From: Ndongobacter massiliensis
GTDB taxonomy: Bacteria > Bacillota > Clostridia > Tissierellales > Peptoniphilaceae
Assembly (NCBI RefSeq): GCF_900120375.1
Contig: NZ_LT635480.1
Coordinates: 1,054,001 to 1,118,000, forward strand
DNA length: 64,000 nt
Direction of reading: 5' to 3'
Under the pieces are notes generated by a model, which worked only from the letters and a program-made list of their open reading frames with translations, was not told where the DNA came from and made no database searches. Shown here piece by piece: positions 2,883-9,806 of this stretch (the stretch's first letter is position 1; every line of letters begins with the position of its first letter). A program made the translations under genes and the position numbers.

Positions 2883-5606
2883 TCATTCCGGCATCGCCGT
2901 CCAGACAACTCCTTCTGCCTGCGCCAATCGTTTCATGCGCCCATGACATGTAAACAGAAAGATCTGACGATTCTGTTCCGCTGCATAGGTCTGCAGAAAA
3001 TGCAGTGCGCGCTCGGCGCGTTGATCGTCAAAAAGAACAAAGGAATCATCGAGAAATAGCGGGAAAATCTCCTCGCTTTGAATCAACTCCGTCATCGCGA
3101 TACGCAGAGCAAAATAGGCCTGTTCCATGGTGCCGGAGCTCAACATGTCCCAAGGGCGACTCGCCTGCTCCGCGGATTCGACTGTGATACCGTAATTGCC
3201 GTCCACCCACACCCGCTCGTAGTGCCCGCCCGTAAGCTGCCGAAGGATTTCTCCCGTGCGTTCGTTCAGTTTTACGCTGATCCCGCTTCGTGTGTGTTTA
3301 TACGAAGCTTCCAGCGTTTCCAGAGCAAGCGATAAGGCATCCGCTTGGATACACAGGTGTTCGCGCTCCGCCAGATACGACGCTTTCTCCGCCTCCAACT
3401 GCGAAACATTTGGCGTATCTTTGAACTTTGTATTGATCTCCGCAGTGCGCTCCACGATTTTTCCCCGCAGGTTCGCCACTTCCTGATGCAACGCGTCGAT
3501 GGTGCGATCCAAGTCTGCTTGCATTTCTTCGGCGGGAAGATTTGCAGGTGCCGCTATGCAGTCTTCTTCCTGTGCCACAGATGCGTCAAACCTCTGTTTC
3601 CACGTCGCCCACCGTTCCTCCAATTCCGCCACCGAGGTACCGTCTGCTTGCTGCAACCGCTCTGCAAGCAATGTAACATCCCGGCTTGCATCTTCCCAAT
3701 CGCGCACCGCTCGCCCTACATCCTGCAAAAATTCGGTGCCTGCAGCCGAGTTCTGCGGTGCATTCTTCCCGAAGAAGGTCTCGAAACGTGCGGCATGATC
3801 CGCTATTGTCATGTCCCATTTTTCCAGATCTGCCGTCGACGCTTCGATCGTCTGCGCGATTCGCTCGCCCTGCTGAAGGTCTTCCTCCAGGTTCCGCGCC
3901 GCATCCGTGCAATCCCGCTCACACAGTGCCACTGCCGTTTGTGCTTCATGCAACGCACGTTCCGCAACACTGTATTTTTGGTTGCATTCTTCAGAATCCT
4001 TCCGGGCACTTTCGCATTCCCGCTCTTTTTCCTGCAGTATCTGCGCAGTCTGTTCGCGTACTTGTCGCGCCGATGCCTGCGCCTCCTGCTGCTTTCGAAC
4101 CTCCGTTTCCCATGCAGCCTGCTGCTGCCGGGCTGTTTCTTGCCGCTTGCTTTCTTCGCGCCTTTGCATTTCCCAGTCGCTTTGTGCCTTTTTTGCACGA
4201 TAGAAACCGAGCAGCGTTAATAGGGCACTCCCGCCGAAGAGAAGTCCTGCCGGTATTTTCGGAAGAAATTCCAAATAAAAAGCAATGCCAAAAAACAGCA
4301 TGAGCATACCGCCGCTAAGGAGGATGGGCAAACTTCGCTTCGGCGCGGGTACTATGCTTTCCACAAAAGTTGCCGGGCGATTCCGTTCCAGTGCACGAAG
4401 CTCTTCTTCGCACTTCCACAGCGCCGACTCCTGCTCTTGCAATTGCTCTCGAATTTTTTCTCTCTGCGCATCGGCGGTGTTGATTCGATTCCGAGTTTCC
4501 GAACGATTTGCTTCCAAAAACTCCAGCCGCTGCTTTTTCTGTGCGACGTCCTGCTCCGCATTCGCTAACGCTTCTTTCGCCTGTTTCAGACGCGCTTGCG
4601 GTGCGCTCTGCCCCGTCGCCTTATGCGCCTCTCGTTCCTCCTGTGCCGCCGCTTGCCGCGCCGCCGCCTGCCGGCGTCCGCGCTCCGCGTCCTTCCACTT
4701 TTCCAACACCTGCTGCCAACGCTCCAACCCCTCGCGCGTCAGCACGCCACCCGGATACTGCAGTTTTTGCGCCCGCTGCGCCCGCGTCGCGGTCAACCGC
4801 TCCAATTCCCGCGCATTTTCGAGCGCCTGCTGCAGCCGTCGGCCTTCCTGCTCCTGTGCCAACTGCGTCCGCCGGCGCTGACACCGCTCCAATTGTGCCA
4901 CTTTCTCCGCCCTCGCACTCGACCAGATGGCGATCTGTTCTTCCGCTTCTTTCCGCTCGTGTTCTGCCGCCCGCGCCGTTATGAATTGCTCCTCCAACGC
5001 TGCAATATGTTGATCCAAATCATTCAGCCGCCCTGTATTACCGCGCAGGCTGACAAGTGTTTTCTTTGCCTCTTCGAGGCGCTTTTTTGTCACATCGTAC
5101 GAGACCGAAACGTCGCCCGTACTCACCGCGGAAAGCAGACGATCCTTCAATGTATCGCTGCCGTTCGGTTTCTGTACCAGATTTCCCTGCGCATCGATAA
5201 ACAGGGTGCGCAAAAAGGCATTTATATCCATCCCGAAAAAATAATCGCCCGGAGTCTGTCCCGCCGGTAGAGAAATCAATTCCCCCGTGTGTTCATCTTG
5301 CAGTGTCACGGTATCTTGTCCCGGCGCCGACCCGAATTGATGGGACAGGCGATACTTCCGGTTTCCCGATGTAAATACGATCACACCGCCGTCGTCGACT
5401 TTCTTAAATTGGTAGCGCAGACGAGGATTATTGCGTACGTCATGCTTTCTGGAATATCCGACATAAAAGGCCAATAAAATAAAGTCCAACACGGTCGATT
5501 TTCCGCTCTCGTTTTCGCCGTAAATGACTTGAAGATGCGGCGCGCCGGATAACTCAAAATTTTTCATTTTTCCAAAAGATCGGATGGAAAGTGTTTCAAT
5601 TTTCAC
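2883..5606 (-). CDS. YhaN-like SMC/SbcC-family ATPase
   Basis: Large coiled-coil ATPase of the SbcC/Rad50-like class, closest in architecture to Bacillus subtilis YhaN, which pairs with a metallophosphoesterase. Walker A is GENESGKST (residues 30-38). The C-terminus carries the ABC-type signature region SSGTMEQAYFALRI and a Walker B-like FLDDSFVLFDD. Between them lie Gln/Glu/Arg-rich coiled coils interrupted around residues 420-468 by two hydrophobic segments (LPILLSGGMLMLFFGIAFYL and a second), suggesting membrane association. I chose the GTG at 5606: it overlaps the upstream stop (GTGA) and has GGAAGGAG 9-10 nt before it; a longer ATG start at 5636 lies inside the partner gene. Expected role is DNA-end processing or repair with the adjacent nuclease. 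Confidence 0.85.
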   Translation of the reverse strand: MKIETLSIRSFGKMKNFELSGAPHLQVIYGENESGKSTVLDFILLAFYVGYSRKHDVRNNPRLRYQFKKVDDGGVIVFTSGNRKYRLSHQFGSAPGQDTVTLQDEHTGELISLPAGQTPGDYFFGMDINAFLRTLFIDAQGNLVQKPNGSDTLKDRLLSAVSTGDVSVSYDVTKKRLEEAKKTLVSLRGNTGRLNDLDQHIAALEEQFITARAAEHERKEAEEQIAIWSSARAEKVAQLERCQRRRTQLAQEQEGRRLQQALENARELERLTATRAQRAQKLQYPGGVLTREGLERWQQVLEKWKDAERGRRQAAARQAAAQEEREAHKATGQSAPQARLKQAKEALANAEQDVAQKKQRLEFLEANRSETRNRINTADAQREKIREQLQEQESALWKCEEELRALERNRPATFVESIVPAPKRSLPILLSGGMLMLFFGIAFYLEFLPKIPAGLLFGGSALLTLLGFYRAKKAQSDWEMQRREESKRQETARQQQAAWETEVRKQQEAQASARQVREQTAQILQEKERECESARKDSEECNQKYSVAERALHEAQTAVALCERDCTDAARNLEEDLQQGERIAQTIEASTADLEKWDMTIADHAARFETFFGKNAPQNSAAGTEFLQDVGRAVRDWEDASRDVTLLAERLQQADGTSVAELEERWATWKQRFDASVAQEEDCIAAPANLPAEEMQADLDRTIDALHQEVANLRGKIVERTAEINTKFKDTPNVSQLEAEKASYLAEREHLCIQADALSLALETLEASYKHTRSGISVKLNERTGEILRQLTGGHYERVWVDGNYGITVESAEQASRPWDMLSSGTMEQAYFALRIAMTELIQSEEIFPLFLDDSFVLFDDQRAERALHFLQTYAAEQNRQIFLFTCHGRMKRLAQAEGVVWTAMPE

Positions 5607-6856
5607 AGCCGTATATCTCCTTCCAGCGCTTGCCAACCATACCGCAGTGCCAATTGTTGCACTTCTTTTTCACGCTCATCGCCCGGGGCGGCAATTTTCT
5701 TTTGCAGCGCGTCGACGAAAAAGCCGCGCAAATTCTGTTCTTTTCGCACCGACGCCCAATTGACCGCCGGCTGCGTTTCGTCGAAAAGTTCTACATAGTA
5801 CAACCGATCGCGCAACTCTTGTTCCAGCATCGGGACGCGGCGCGCAAGTGACTCCTCACAGTTTCCAATTAGATAAAAGCGATAGTAATCTGCTTGCACA
5901 TCGCGCGTTCGCAGTGAAGTGTCGACACCCGCCTCCGGCTCAACGCCATCTGTCGTTTGCGCCGCATCCATTTCAAACTGCTGCACACGCGCTTCAATGC
6001 GCGCGGATAGCTCTTCCCGACTTTGCACTTCACTCACGTCAATTTCTTCCCGGTGGAATTGTCGCGAAGAAAAGGACAAAAATTGTGATTGCATTTGCCG
6101 GCCATCCCACGTCAACAGATAGCCCCCTTTTGCACCGGTCTCATCAAAACCCGCACCGTCAAGACAACCCGCATAGGCATAGGCCGTTTTCCCGATGTTC
6201 TGAATCGGCGTGCGCTTGTGCACATGGCCTAGGGCGACATAAGCAAAATAATCCGCGGGAAAGGCTTCTGGCACAATCGGGTGATAGTTCGATTTCTCAC
6301 CCGGACGCACGAGATCGCCATGCAGCACGGCCAGGTGCAGGAAAGAGGATGAATCCGGTACTTCTGATTTTTCTGTCCGGTTTTCTCCAAAGTTCTGTAT
6401 GCTTCCGAATCCGCACATCGGATCAAAATCGCACAACAGGCTCTCCCTTTGATACGTTCCTTCAAAACCGGCGCCGGTTATGGAAATCTGTTGCGCAGGC
6501 AACAATACGGTCGAGGCCTTCCCGCGAAAAATATGCACACAGTCAGGCCAATGCGGCTGCGCATAGGGCGAGTCAATGGCAAAATAATCGTGGTTACCCG
6601 GGCTGATAAAAACCTTCGTTTTTGTCAACACACCGAACATCTCCTGCACCTCTTGCAAAAGCGCCGGCGGAATGGTCACGTTATCAAAAATATCCCCGGC
6701 AAGAAGCAGTATATCGACGCCTTCCTCTTCACAAAAGGTGAGCATCCGCCGAACCGTCTGAATTTTTTCCCGGCTACGCTCCGAAGCGTAAGTGCCCAGC
6801 GCCTGTAATGGTGCCCCCAAGTGCAAGTCCGCCGCGTGAAACACTTTCCATGTCAT
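5603..6856 (-). CDS. YhaO/SbcD-like DNA repair metallophosphoesterase
   Basis: Calcineurin-like phosphoesterase of the Mre11/SbcD/YhaO group. Two-metal motifs are visible: Asp10 and His12 in HAADLHLG, GDIFD (Asp55), GNHD (88-90) and GHVH further on. I placed the start at the ATG at 6856 because MTWKVFHAADLHLG is the canonical N-terminus and GGAAGGAG precedes it; a longer open frame reaches 7063 but runs into the upstream gene and is unconserved. The product is 417 aa. It is translationally coupled to the ATPase (GTGA overlap), as expected for an obligate nuclease-ATPase complex. Confidence 0.88.
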   Translation of the reverse strand: MTWKVFHAADLHLGAPLQALGTYASERSREKIQTVRRMLTFCEEEGVDILLLAGDIFDNVTIPPALLQEVQEMFGVLTKTKVFISPGNHDYFAIDSPYAQPHWPDCVHIFRGKASTVLLPAQQISITGAGFEGTYQRESLLCDFDPMCGFGSIQNFGENRTEKSEVPDSSSFLHLAVLHGDLVRPGEKSNYHPIVPEAFPADYFAYVALGHVHKRTPIQNIGKTAYAYAGCLDGAGFDETGAKGGYLLTWDGRQMQSQFLSFSSRQFHREEIDVSEVQSREELSARIEARVQQFEMDAAQTTDGVEPEAGVDTSLRTRDVQADYYRFYLIGNCEESLARRVPMLEQELRDRLYYVELFDETQPAVNWASVRKEQNLRGFFVDALQKKIAAPGDEREKEVQQLALRYGWQALEGDIRL

Positions 6857-6873: not shown

Positions 6874-8715
6874 TTATTCGGTGCCCAGAAGCGTCAGTCC
6901 TTCCGCCCGATCGACCGGCAGAACTGATAAAGCTAATGAATGAAATTCCGGTTGTTCCCGCAGTGTCCACAGCGTCGTGCAAAGTGGCTCCGTCAACTCT
7001 GCCTTGACGACCAACCACAGCATTTCCTTCTCCGGATCCAAATTGAGGGAATAGCTGGACCACGCACGCGCCCGGGCATCGCGACCATGCAAAATGGTTG
7101 CTCCCTGCGCTCCGATTGTGTGCGCCGTCTCTACCACCTCATCCGCCTTGCCGCGATCGACCGTGCAGGAAATCAGGTCGTATAAGGGTCCGTCAAAGGC
7201 GGCCATTGTACGCAATTGCATCACCGGTTCTTCCAGCAAAAGGGTCTCCGATCCGGCTTTTCGGCGGCGCAGCTCAAACACCGTACCCAATATCATGACG
7301 CTGAGCACCGGGGCCATGGCAATCATGGCAATGACGCCGAAGCCGTCCGCAAGCACATCCGCCGTCGGAATGCTGTCGGCGGCGCCTTGCGCGAACGACA
7401 GTACAAAGGTCGCCGCCATCGGTCCGGAAGCGACGCCCCCGGCATCATAGGCGATACCGACAAAAATCGGATCGGCAACAAAAGACAGCACCACCGCGAT
7501 CAAAAATCCCGGCAGGAGAAAATACCAGAGTTTCACTTCGGGTATCATGATGCGGACCATGGACAGCGCAATCGCCGCGCCAACGCCGATCGACAGCGTA
7601 AGCTTCAGCAACTTTGTCGGAATGTTCCCCGCCGTGACTTCTTCCACTTGTTCGCCCAATACGTGTACCGCCGGCTCCGCCAAAACGACGATCAAGCCGA
7701 TTACCAGACCGACGGCGGGAAGCAGCGATGGATGTGCCTCGGCAAGACCGGTGCCGAGCAGGCGCCCCATATCCATAAATCCCTGATTGGCGCCCACTAA
7801 AAAGAGGGTCAACCCCAGCAGTGTATATACCAGTCCGCGGACGATCCCCACCAGTTCACGGGCCGGCAGCTTGAATTTTACAAAATGGAAAGCAAAAAAC
7901 AGCACAACGATCGGTGCGAGCGCAGTCAGTGACTCGACAAAAATCGGTCCTAGATGCGCAAGAATCGGTCCGAATACGCCTTCTTCCATGACAAAGGGGA
8001 CGGCTTCTCCTTGGATGTGCGTCTGCCCTGTCAGAATGGAAAGCAACATGACCGCTAAAATGGGACCCGCGCTCATCGTACCAACCATGCCGAAGGAATC
8101 CGCTTCAGAGTTTTTTCCGCCTTTTAAGTAGGACAGTCCAGCGGAAAGTGCCAAAACAAAGGGCGTCGTAAGCGCTCCGGTGGTCGCGCCGGACGCATCA
8201 AAAGAAATTGCCAAAAATTCTTCCGATACGCGCAGGCCTAAGAGCAGAATACTGCCGTACACGATCCCCATAAAGAGATTCAAGCGCCGACTGAACAGAA
8301 TCCGCAGCGCGCCCAACGCAATCATAATCCCTACGCCGATAGAAATCATCGCCACGAGAAAGGCGGCGTTCATGGTCCCTCCGGAAGCCTGTTCGACCTG
8401 GTTGCCGAGAATGAGCAGATCGGGCTCGGCAACGGTGATGAGAAAGCCGAGCAGAAAGCTGATCACTACCGCTTTCAGCCACCCGCCGGAGCTTGCCACT
8501 TCCTGGGCCATATGCCGACCGATCGGCTGCATACTCTGATCAACCCCCCACAGAAAAATAGAAAGACCGAGAAAAATTAGCAGGGCGCCCAGTAAAAATC
8601 GCAGAACAACGGTAGTGTCCACCGGTACAAGGAGCAAGCTGATGGCTACCACAAGCAGGACAATGGGCAACAGCGACTGGCTGACTTCCTGTACTTTACT
8701 CTGTAAGGCGTTCAT
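6874..8715 (-). CDS. DUF1538 membrane protein with C-terminal PII-like domain
   Basis: A 613-residue polytopic membrane protein with two tandem DUF1538 repeats (about residues 1-240 and 250-490), each containing an AEP motif and a YDAGG/FDASG-type loop (ISFDASGATTG in the first, IAYDAGGVASG in the second). The last ~110 residues form a soluble PII-like fold: CTVDRGKADEVV followed by GATILHGRD and a strand-rich end. PII proteins normally gate transporters or enzymes according to nucleotide and metabolite levels, so a self-gated channel or transporter is a reasonable inference. The substrate is unknown. Its ATG overlaps the stop of the tandem-PII gene upstream (8712-8715), so the two are co-translated. 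Confidence 0.85.
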   Translation of the reverse strand: MNALQSKVQEVSQSLLPIVLLVVAISLLLVPVDTTVVLRFLLGALLIFLGLSIFLWGVDQSMQPIGRHMAQEVASSGGWLKAVVISFLLGFLITVAEPDLLILGNQVEQASGGTMNAAFLVAMISIGVGIMIALGALRILFSRRLNLFMGIVYGSILLLGLRVSEEFLAISFDASGATTGALTTPFVLALSAGLSYLKGGKNSEADSFGMVGTMSAGPILAVMLLSILTGQTHIQGEAVPFVMEEGVFGPILAHLGPIFVESLTALAPIVVLFFAFHFVKFKLPARELVGIVRGLVYTLLGLTLFLVGANQGFMDMGRLLGTGLAEAHPSLLPAVGLVIGLIVVLAEPAVHVLGEQVEEVTAGNIPTKLLKLTLSIGVGAAIALSMVRIMIPEVKLWYFLLPGFLIAVVLSFVADPIFVGIAYDAGGVASGPMAATFVLSFAQGAADSIPTADVLADGFGVIAMIAMAPVLSVMILGTVFELRRRKAGSETLLLEEPVMQLRTMAAFDGPLYDLISCTVDRGKADEVVETAHTIGAQGATILHGRDARARAWSSYSLNLDPEKEMLWLVVKAELTEPLCTTLWTLREQPEFHSLALSVLPVDRAEGLTLLGTE

Positions 8716-9371
8716 GTGTGGCTCCCTTCCCGGTTCTCATAGAGCCCTGAAACCCGTGAAACCGGCAACACGAAGAGAATGCCCGTCCCCGGCGCATGCA
8801 GATCCATTTTCTCAACAATGCCTTGACGGATTCGTGGCGCATCTTCCGTGGGGCATAGAAACAGAACGATATCTTTTTCCGGCTGGAGCATGGTAGCAAA
8901 GTAATTGCCCGCCGGCACCCCGGCACCACGTCCGTGCAAAATCGTGCCGCCCGCCGCACCCGCAGCGCGCGCCGCTGCTACACATGCGCGACTGTTACCG
9001 CGATCTGAAATCACGACGATACATTGATAGCGAAAGCTCAGAGGATCGGGGCGCTCCTCTTCCGGAAAGAAACGCGTCTGTCCCATTCTGCTGAGGGGCA
9101 TCGTAAAGGCGATTCCTCGATTTTTCTTATGAATATGAAAACGAGCCCGCATCATCTCATGTAAAGATGCTTCAAATTGTTGTGGACTCGTCAGTACGAT
9201 AATGTCTTTTTGGGTCTCTGCCAAACCCATTAACTCCAGCCAGCGATTGGAAACCGTCCCCTCCCCGTGAAACACGGTGCCGCCCGGCAGGCCGAAAGCG
9301 CGCGTCTCGGCAAGCACCTCTTCCGCTCGTCCGCGATCCACGACGCCCATAAATAGCATCTGTTGATCCAT
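8712..9371 (-). CDS. Tandem PII-like domain protein
   Basis: A 219-residue soluble protein made of two PII-like modules, each opening with the same signature: VVDRGRAEEVLAETRAFG then GGTVFHGEG, and VISDRGNSRACVAAARAAG then GGTILHGRG. Each matches the beta-alpha-beta start and ligand loop of PII/GlnB-like sensors, and both resemble the C-terminal domain of the adjacent DUF1538 protein. The start ATG has AAAGGAG upstream and a perfect palindrome only 15 bp before it. The likely role is regulation of the coupled membrane protein, by hetero-association with its C-terminal domain. The ligand is not predictable. Confidence 0.8.
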   Translation of the reverse strand: MDQQMLFMGVVDRGRAEEVLAETRAFGLPGGTVFHGEGTVSNRWLELMGLAETQKDIIVLTSPQQFEASLHEMMRARFHIHKKNRGIAFTMPLSRMGQTRFFPEEERPDPLSFRYQCIVVISDRGNSRACVAAARAAGAAGGTILHGRGAGVPAGNYFATMLQPEKDIVLFLCPTEDAPRIRQGIVEKMDLHAPGTGILFVLPVSRVSGLYENREGSHT

Positions 9372-9386
9372 TCGTCTCTCCTTTAT

Positions 9387-9412
9387 GGTATAAAATTATT
9401 TAATTTTATACC
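9387..9412 (-). promoter_or_regulatory. Perfect 26-bp palindrome, probable operator
   Basis: GGTATAAAATTA and its exact reverse complement flank a 2-nt centre, ending 15 bp before the ATG of the tandem-PII gene and just upstream of its ribosome binding site. AT-rich TATAAA/TATACC hexamers inside it could serve as a -10. There is no T-tract or GC-rich stem, so a terminator is unlikely. A repressor operator overlapping the promoter is the best reading; the cognate regulator is not identifiable here. Confidence 0.6.
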
Positions 9413-9448: not shown

Positions 9449-9474
9449 AAAAAAAGCGCCCATGCGGGCGCTTT
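9449..9474 (-). terminator. Terminator of small charged-protein gene
   Basis: Stem AAAGCGCCC/GGGCGCTTT (9453-9474) with a 4-nt loop, followed by a run of Ts on the minus strand (plus-strand As at 9449-9455). It lies a few bases past the stop of the gene at 9487-9693. Confidence 0.85.
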
Positions 9475-9486
9475 CGTAACTTGAGC

Positions 9487-9693
9487 CTACTTTTTCAGCT
9501 TATTCCATTCCTCTTCGATTTTGTCTTTTGCCTCGCTGCCTTTTTTGCGAGCATCATCATACAAATCCGAGGCGCCCTTTTTTACGTCTTCCGCTTTTTC
9601 CTCGGTGAACTTCTTGGCGTCATCAAATTTTTCCTTGGCGGCATCGCCGACGTTTTTCGCCTGTTTTTTCACATCATCAAATAAATTGCTCAT
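9487..9693 (-). CDS. Small charged amphipathic helical protein
   Basis: A 68-residue, Lys/Asp/Glu/Ala-rich protein starting MSNLFDDVKKQAKN, with 11-residue-like repeats of the type DDAKKFTEEKAEDVKKGA. Composition and periodicity resemble CsbD/LEA/YtxH-type stress proteins, but no specific family is certain. The ATG at 9693 is preceded by AAAGGAGAT, and a good terminator follows, so this is a monocistronic, probably well-expressed gene. The longer frame to 9723 lacks a ribosome binding site. Confidence 0.75.
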   Translation of the reverse strand: MSNLFDDVKKQAKNVGDAAKEKFDDAKKFTEEKAEDVKKGASDLYDDARKKGSEAKDKIEEEWNKLKK

Positions 9694-9806
9694 ACTATCT
9701 CCTTTTCTTGCACTCTTCCGCACCGCTTACGATGTCGGCGCAGTCAAAATGTTTCACATTCTATCTACCCGGACCGGTGACTTTCAAACAAAAAGTGCAT
9801 TCGAAT

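Follow-up and report, generated by a model that had tools for sequence, protein, structure and literature searches.

What would a membrane transporter do with three PII-like domains? This question is raised by two overlapping genes on the minus strand of a 64-kb stretch of the Ndongobacter massiliensis genome, the whole of which we call the window. The upstream gene encodes a tandem PII-like protein, and the downstream gene encodes a fusion of DUF1538 repeats with a PII-like domain (Table 1). A first-pass annotation of the DNA had described a membrane protein with two DUF1538 repeats and one C-terminal PII-like domain, coupled by an ATGA-type overlap to a gene for two further PII-like domains. 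This architecture is borne out: PF07556 and our own profiles recover the repeats, our profiles recover the C-terminal domain, our profiles and an AlphaFold2 model recover the two upstream domains, and the overlap is read directly from the sequence. The fusion protein matches PF07556 over two stretches with 407.6 bits against a gathering cut-off of 22.6, which places it in the DUF1538 family. We find that DUF1538 is accompanied by a particular PII subfamily. Co-occurrence and gene order very strongly support a functional link of the PII-like protein with the transporter, as the first-pass annotation had supposed. A PII-type sensor very likely controls the transporter. By analogy with SbtB-SbtA and GlnK-AmtB, we consider it reasonably probable that the module is a cation/proton antiporter with a dedicated PII-like regulator that senses an adenine nucleotide.

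Co-occurrence was scored in two genome samples, 61 relatives and 249 genomes of the phylum, with a union of at most 307 genomes; both contain the source genome and at least two that lack DUF1538 (G032 and G039). Among the relatives, the PII subfamily (profile A2, E ≤ 1e-20) was found in 30 of 32 DUF1538 genomes versus 2 of 29 others. The phylum sample (profile A3) gave 83 of 84 versus 0 of 165 at E ≤ 1e-20, and 83 of 84 versus 14 of 165 at E ≤ 1e-6; the stricter threshold was set after a gap was seen between the weakest partner (1.3e-26) and the strongest non-partner (6.4e-17). Because the profiles were trained on DUF1538 partners, these counts show that this PII subfamily, not PII in general, travels with DUF1538. 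Over the union, 112 of 115 DUF1538 genomes carry the subfamily, and the three that lack it all have a broken DUF1538: G010 carries a deletion inside the gene along with a changed motif, G019 lacks the middle of the gene, and G115 has six stops inside the match. A PII domain is also present in 78 of 80 named loci that were fetched by DUF1538 motifs alone and are the best 80 of 573 confirmed. Public annotation already shows the pair, as a "DUF1538 domain-containing protein" beside a "P-II family nitrogen regulator". Our literature search, with subscription papers outside its scope, found no paper joining the two; the accessible text of one antiporter paper (PMC7221264) makes no link to PII, "pii" being there part of a motif string. 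In the complete source genome, the tandem protein is the only PF00543 match, and classical GlnB/GlnK was not found. A conserved third module gene was also considered and rejected, as the commonest neighbour cluster occurs within 4 kb in only 14 of the 80 named loci.

All three domains are supported as PII-like by profiles and models. Domain 2 of the tandem protein matches PF00543 (P-II) with 35.7 bits against a cut-off of 25, which makes it a member of the Pfam family, and its profile retrieves PDB entries of P-II proteins (E 9.5e-9). PF00543 matches the tandem protein in this single stretch, leaving domain 1 unmatched, and gives no match to the fused domain at E ≤ 1. These two domains are tied to domain 2 by BLAST between the domains and by a common profile of our own, which was trained also on domain 1 and the fused domain. 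AlphaFold2 models of the two proteins, from alignments that contained 26 and 25 sequences, predict two ferredoxin-like units in the tandem protein (mean predicted local distance difference test score (pLDDT) 87, predicted template-modelling score (pTM) 0.83) and a helical membrane part plus one ferredoxin-like unit in the fusion protein (pLDDT 83.7, pTM 0.74). In structure comparisons, PII structures head the lists for domain 2 (Z up to 9.8) and for the fused domain, which matches TTHA0516, CPII and SbtB (Z 9.6-10.0), and domain 1 matches CPII (Z 9.0). The PII fold on which the first-pass annotation depended is seen in the models, as ferredoxin-like units that match PII structures at Z 9.0-10.0. 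In the case of the fused domain, CutA, NIF3 and an aspartate kinase domain, all ferredoxin-like, come close to these scores. Since such proteins follow so closely, the fold match alone would not suffice for PII kinship, and it is the profiles and BLAST that carry it.

Ligand motifs are unevenly kept among the three domains. Motif positions relative to GlnK were assigned by alignments and PMC7919409, using 86 rows outside the clade of PII-fused transporters (the fusion clade) and 15 within it. Outside the clade, domain 2 keeps the Thr of GGT in 85 of 86 rows, the Arg of GRG in 80, the Lys of PEK in 84, and the second B-loop Gly in 82. Domain 1 keeps the second B-loop Gly in 84 of these rows, but its GRG position holds Arg or Lys in no more than 55. 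Within the clade, the fused domain has the Arg of GRG in 14 of 15 rows and the second B-loop Gly in 2, and in domain 1 the GRG position is basic in 1 of 15 rows and the second B-loop Gly is kept in 14. We rejected an Arg-to-Glu switch in domain 1 timed with the fusion; Glu also occurs in the sister locus L013 and in scattered others. In the window, domain 2 keeps the GGT threonine and both B-loop glycines, which are phosphate holders in GlnK; PMC7919409 assigns this role to the backbone of Gly87 and Gly89. By analogy, the ligand would most likely be AMP/ADP-like, with c-di-AMP (cyclic di-AMP) or cAMP possible. According to their titles, structure entries of SbtB and CPII hold AMP or ADP, those of CPII also bicarbonate, and SbtB crystals also contain ATP, cAMP and c-di-AMP. 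A c-di-AMP synthase domain was found in the source genome and does not discriminate among these ligands.

The transport function is suggested by a relative. UmpAB, the DUF1538 pair of Halomonas zhaodongensis, is described in PMC5484666 as catalysing Na+(Li+,K+)/H+ antiport when expressed in E. coli KNabc; the statement of the first-pass annotation that such functions are uncharacterised is thus wrong for DUF1538 in general. By this analogy, the window transporter is probably a sodium or potassium/proton exchanger. Every one of the 218 repeats compared has the Glu of the AEP motif and the Asp of the next motif (104 first repeats, 105 second repeats and 9 from split or single types; repeats of <180 residues and the broken genes L117 and L118 were excluded). 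In the model, Glu97 and Glu347 lie at helix breaks (95/98 and 346/348). Asp173 lies five residues, and Asp424 a few, ahead of breaks (178/183 and 429/432) in which the motif-ending glycines are found.

In the mechanism we propose, the DUF1538 repeats would move Na+ or K+ against H+ via the paired Glu and Asp at or near these helix breaks, and the tandem PII-like protein would dock on the cytoplasmic face of the transporter with an adenine nucleotide bound in its inter-domain clefts. From there we infer control, in one direction or the other: the bound nucleotide would alter transport by direct contact, as with SbtB on SbtA and GlnK on AmtB. In the fusion clade, the third domain, of domain-2 type and joined to the transporter C-terminus, retains only half of the ligand motif and would probably act as an anchor or docking subunit. 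Co-expressed umpA and umpB alone suffice for antiport in E. coli KNabc (PMC5484666), which suggests that PII would be a modulator that is not needed for transport.

Two other explanations of the pair have to be considered. The transporter could move a substrate other than a monovalent cation, for example bicarbonate or an organic ion, so that antiport by UmpAB would not be representative. In the literature found, one pair of family members has been assayed (PMC5484666), the window protein scores below the UmpA and UmpB equivalog cut-offs, and a bicarbonate transporter too is bound by a PII-like protein (PMC8352866). We nevertheless regard a different substrate as improbable, given the invariance of Glu and Asp across split, single and fused types and the listing of DUF1538 as a key protein domain in a model of growth pH (PMC13255231). 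Alternatively, the PII-like protein could be an assembly or stability factor that senses nothing, its motifs being structural. The partial loss of ligand motifs from domain 1 and from the fused domain would fit this, as would the broken transporters that accompany missing PII in three genomes; however, the domain-2 motifs are kept over long divergence, and UmpA and UmpB work alone in E. coli (PMC5484666). A pure assembly role therefore seems distinctly unlikely, and a sensing regulator on a cation/proton antiporter is the reading we keep.

Several observations weigh against this favoured reading. The fusion protein scores 157.9 against the UmpA model (NF041627; cut-off 490) and 153.9 against the UmpB model (NF041628; cut-off 500), and because these scores are well below the cut-offs, the transfer of substrate from UmpAB is uncertain. 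The model of the fusion protein gave no Foldseek match at E ≤ 0.001, so its transporter fold was not placed, and in a second structure comparison the PII domain fills the list, with no reliable match for the membrane part. Neither hallmark of classical GlnB/GlnK proteins, the B-loop lysine after GxG and the C-loop arginines, was found. Window domain 2 has Ile at the B-loop lysine position of the aligned GlnK1; in 84 of 86 domain-2 rows, the residue after the second B-loop Gly is Ile, Leu, Val or Met, where GlnK1 has Lys. The C-terminal RVVRVRTK of GlnK1 aligns with skvvGlykk, its arginines not kept. With these residues lost, classical ATP/2-oxoglutarate sensing is not supported, and in our view a ligand such as AMP or ADP is favoured. 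The coupling also has exceptions. A DUF1538 gene functioning alone was what the first-pass annotation itself held to speak against the module, and two of the 80 named loci show no PII: in L087 none is visible and the contig ends 749 bases on, and in L076, a metagenome contig, there is none within the following 5 kb. The three PII-less genomes, as shown above, have broken genes. The converse is not strict, as G011 and G172 keep PII despite a stop inside DUF1538, and on a Chelativorans plasmid the first DUF1538 gene is only a piece, with PII kept. Finally, G031 and G034 have an orphan tandem PII gene and no DUF1538 match in the genome.

PII-gated transport is known; what is new here is the transporter family and the tandem and fused make-up of PII. 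UmpAB belongs to the same Pfam family and likewise has two DUF1538 units per transporter, but these are encoded by two genes, whereas the window has both in one polypeptide with a fused PII domain. The SbtA-SbtB operon is similar in pairing a Na+-linked transporter that has internal repeats with a PII-like protein (PMC8352866). SbtB, matched by the fused domain model at Z 9.6, differs in being a single-domain homotrimer, in contrast to the tandem and fused domains of the window; among the 50 Foldseek matches listed for the fusion model, only SbtB-sized chains of the SbtA-SbtB system appear. AmtB and GlnK are likewise a gene pair in which the PII protein blocks its transporter, according to PMC10710835. 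GlnK1 aligns end to end with the domain-2 profile (E 1.5e-5), but its B-loop lysine and C-terminal arginines are not kept in the window module. CPII of Thiomonas intermedia resembles the fused domain (Z 9.9) and domain 1 (Z 9.0); its entries are single-domain, with no DUF1538 link seen.

Known PII control includes a gated ammonium channel and a bound bicarbonate transporter. A near-obligate PII partner of DUF1538, a family of likely cation/proton antiporters, would, if true, bring pH and Na+/K+ homeostasis under PII control in many Bacillota and in some Alphaproteobacteria at least. Such a pairing would also account for the role of the "P-II family nitrogen regulator" genes beside DUF1538 and suggests that this label is wrong. 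The word PII does not occur in the accessible text of the UmpAB paper (PMC5484666), and UmpAB, the sole assayed member, may have been studied without its regulator.

Layouts of the module were compared in 117 loci, with duplicates removed and loci fetched for lacking one partner included. Most common is a two-repeat transporter with a tandem PII protein (82 loci, including L039, whose fusion is cut by the contig end). The window layout, two repeats with a fused PII domain plus tandem PII, is found in 14 loci including the window, plus L041, which has a fused PII at the contig start. The others comprise a single DUF1538 with a single PII (4 loci), two DUF1538 genes with a P-II gene directly after them that encodes a single PII (on 2 plasmids of Alphaproteobacteria), a two-repeat transporter with a pair of separate PII genes (2 loci), a separate third PII gene (L067), and a few further layouts. 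Copies from the source genome itself (L001, L002, L112 and L113) were dropped from locus counts. L019 and L012, duplicate contigs of L034 and L046, were dropped from the trees and from the motif, invariance and layout counts; raw layout tallies of 83 and 15 count these two twice. The series of single, tandem and fused PII is a natural experiment on changing the make-up of a PII ring. Mobiluncus porci (L095 2385-6569) has two consecutive DUF1538x2 transporters, of which one precedes a tandem PII and the other a single PII gene. Orphan PII genes of the subfamily, with no DUF1538 neighbour, occur in G031, G034, G060 and G037 and could be either decaying remnants or regulators of something else. 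Near modules with single DUF1538 and single PII, or near orphan PII, we also observed a gene whose product starts YIPEVKSKLR, together with a transporter gene (L018, L026, L029 and L122). A functional link of these two genes with the single-PII type is possible. The transporter gene is presumably symporter-like.

The fused third domain arose once. A quick tree of 106 transporters places the 16 fusion rows, L039 included, behind one branch with a Shimodaira-Hasegawa-like approximate likelihood-ratio test (SH-aLRT) value of 100; the tree was built without the PII domain and without L117 and transporters of <420 residues. The sister of the fusion clade consists of three Aerococcus loci and G014, and G024, from the same family as the window genome, groups with two Anaerococcus loci, which makes Peptoniphilaceae the probable family. 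A tree of 123 of the 235 PII-domain rows, with few columns and many forks left open, mostly separates domains 1 and 2 (42 of 46 domain-1 rows are together) and places the fused domains on the domain-2 side.

How the domains would assemble is a further question. The first-pass annotation had proposed that 2+1 PII domains form one pseudo-trimer on the transporter. As a general rule this was rejected, because most relatives have two PII domains and usually no third: in 17 of 22 genomes of the same order or family with a non-fused two-repeat transporter (a set that includes G011 with its broken frame), there is no PII-like match beyond the tandem protein at E ≤ 1e-3, and single-PII layouts also exist. 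The proposal may still hold inside the fusion clade, where domains 1, 2 and fused would form an asymmetric pseudo-trimer per transporter with unequal clefts and split half-sites. The domain classes have diverged and are mostly apart in the PII-domain tree, the sister group too has a third PII gene (L067), and the complementary motif losses of domain 1 and the fused domain in the clade would suit composite sites. However, most members work with two domains, and the domain-1 Glu, being shared with L013 and others, is not tied to the fusion. We consider such a heteromer rather unlikely, and slightly less likely still the full form of the idea, a ring of three paralogues in which the self-borne PII subunit and the two-domain chain share half-sites and transport is gated by one or two sensor sites instead of three identical ones. 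A symmetrical assembly would have three tandem chains form a domain-1 trimer and a domain-2 trimer stacked on a transporter trimer, with the third domain of the fusion clade as a further trimer directly beneath the membrane. In the SbtA-SbtB system, transporter and regulator are each trimeric and share an axis (PMC8352866), and in crystals two GlnK trimers can pile up into a hexamer (PMC7919409); by contrast, UmpAB is described as a heterodimer of two gene products, which lends no support to a threefold transporter (PMC5484666), and single-PII members would form one layer only. Layered homotrimers are the general form we prefer because two-domain members need no missing third partner, and we put their probability somewhat short of even.

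Table 1. Features of the DUF1538-PII module and related elements; positions are those of the window, except for the orphan genes, which are numbered within their own loci
Feature	Position	Strand	Basis and remarks
Tandem PII-like protein gene, 219 aa	8712..9371	-	Open reading frame; two PII-like domains; PF00543 35.7 bits, second half; model pLDDT 87
DUF1538-DUF1538-PII fusion gene, 613 aa	6874..8715	-	Open reading frame; PF07556 1e-122; model pLDDT 83.7
PII-like domain 1, residues 1-103 of tandem protein	9063..9371	-	Own profiles; B-loop glycine kept; GEG in place of GRG (basic residue gone)
PII-like domain 2, residues 115-216 of tandem protein	8724..9029	-	Own profiles; GRG motif, PEK lysine and PGxG B-loop all kept
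DUF1538 repeat 1, residues 4-239 of fusion	7999..8706	-	Own profiles; invariant Glu97 and Asp173
DUF1538 repeat 2, residues 260-490 of fusion	7246..7938	-	Own profiles; invariant Glu347 and Asp424
Fused third PII-like domain, residues 512-608 of fusion	6892..7182	-	Own profiles and model; HGR kept, B-loop glycines gone
ATGA stop/start overlap between tandem PII gene and fusion gene	8712..8715	-	Direct reading of sequence
Inverted repeat, 12-bp arms and 2-nt centre	9387..9412	.	15 nt 5' of tandem PII start codon; without conservation in relatives
GC-rich hairpin and T run (read on - strand)	9453..9474	-	Inverted-repeat search; T run by reading; absent from terminator-scan list
Orphan PII-like genes	L119 5142-5768; L120 4915-5571; L121 5080-5781; L122 5030-5332

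Upstream of the tandem gene lies an inverted repeat, GGTATAAAATTA-TT-TAATTTTATACC, which the first-pass annotation had called a perfect 26-bp palindrome controlling the start. Both 12-bp arms are indeed perfect, but the TT centre is not self-complementary, leaving 24 of 26 bases palindromic. When the 118-nt intergenic stretch was dinucleotide-shuffled 5000 times, no shuffle reached it, so it is more than chance. This, together with its position just ahead of the start codon, would fit an operator for a local repressor. However, a search of the 1.86-Mb genome for other loci found this site alone, even when 3 mismatches were allowed, and such an element is missing from all 12 further fusion-clade loci whose upstream DNA was long enough, where the longest arm is 7 nt (the scan covered the fusion clade and four sisters, with loci having <80 nt upstream, L019, L025, L027 and L041, excluded). 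A promoter scan found no sigma-70-like promoter overlapping it, and it could equally form an mRNA hairpin. On these grounds a conserved operator was rejected and control of the start is unsupported; a putative local operator appears doubtful, and we treat the palindrome as a local feature without an assigned role. In L013, we observed an unrelated hairpin with 18-bp perfect arms, ending 55 nt ahead of the first module gene.

Directly upstream of the module is a gene for a small charged protein (9487-9723, minus strand), with a weak YtxH match below its cut-off. The GC-rich hairpin between the two is possibly its terminator, in which case the module would be a separate transcription unit. On the other side, a SbcD-like gene (5603-6856) lies 3' of the fusion gene on the same strand, followed by a second gene (2883-5636, minus strand) that we take to be SbcC-like. 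Such neighbours do not stand out among the 80 named DUF1538 loci. Here, a likely ATG at 6856 (MTWKVF) lies 17 nt past the fusion stop, so the SbcD- and SbcC-like genes may be co-transcribed with the fusion gene.

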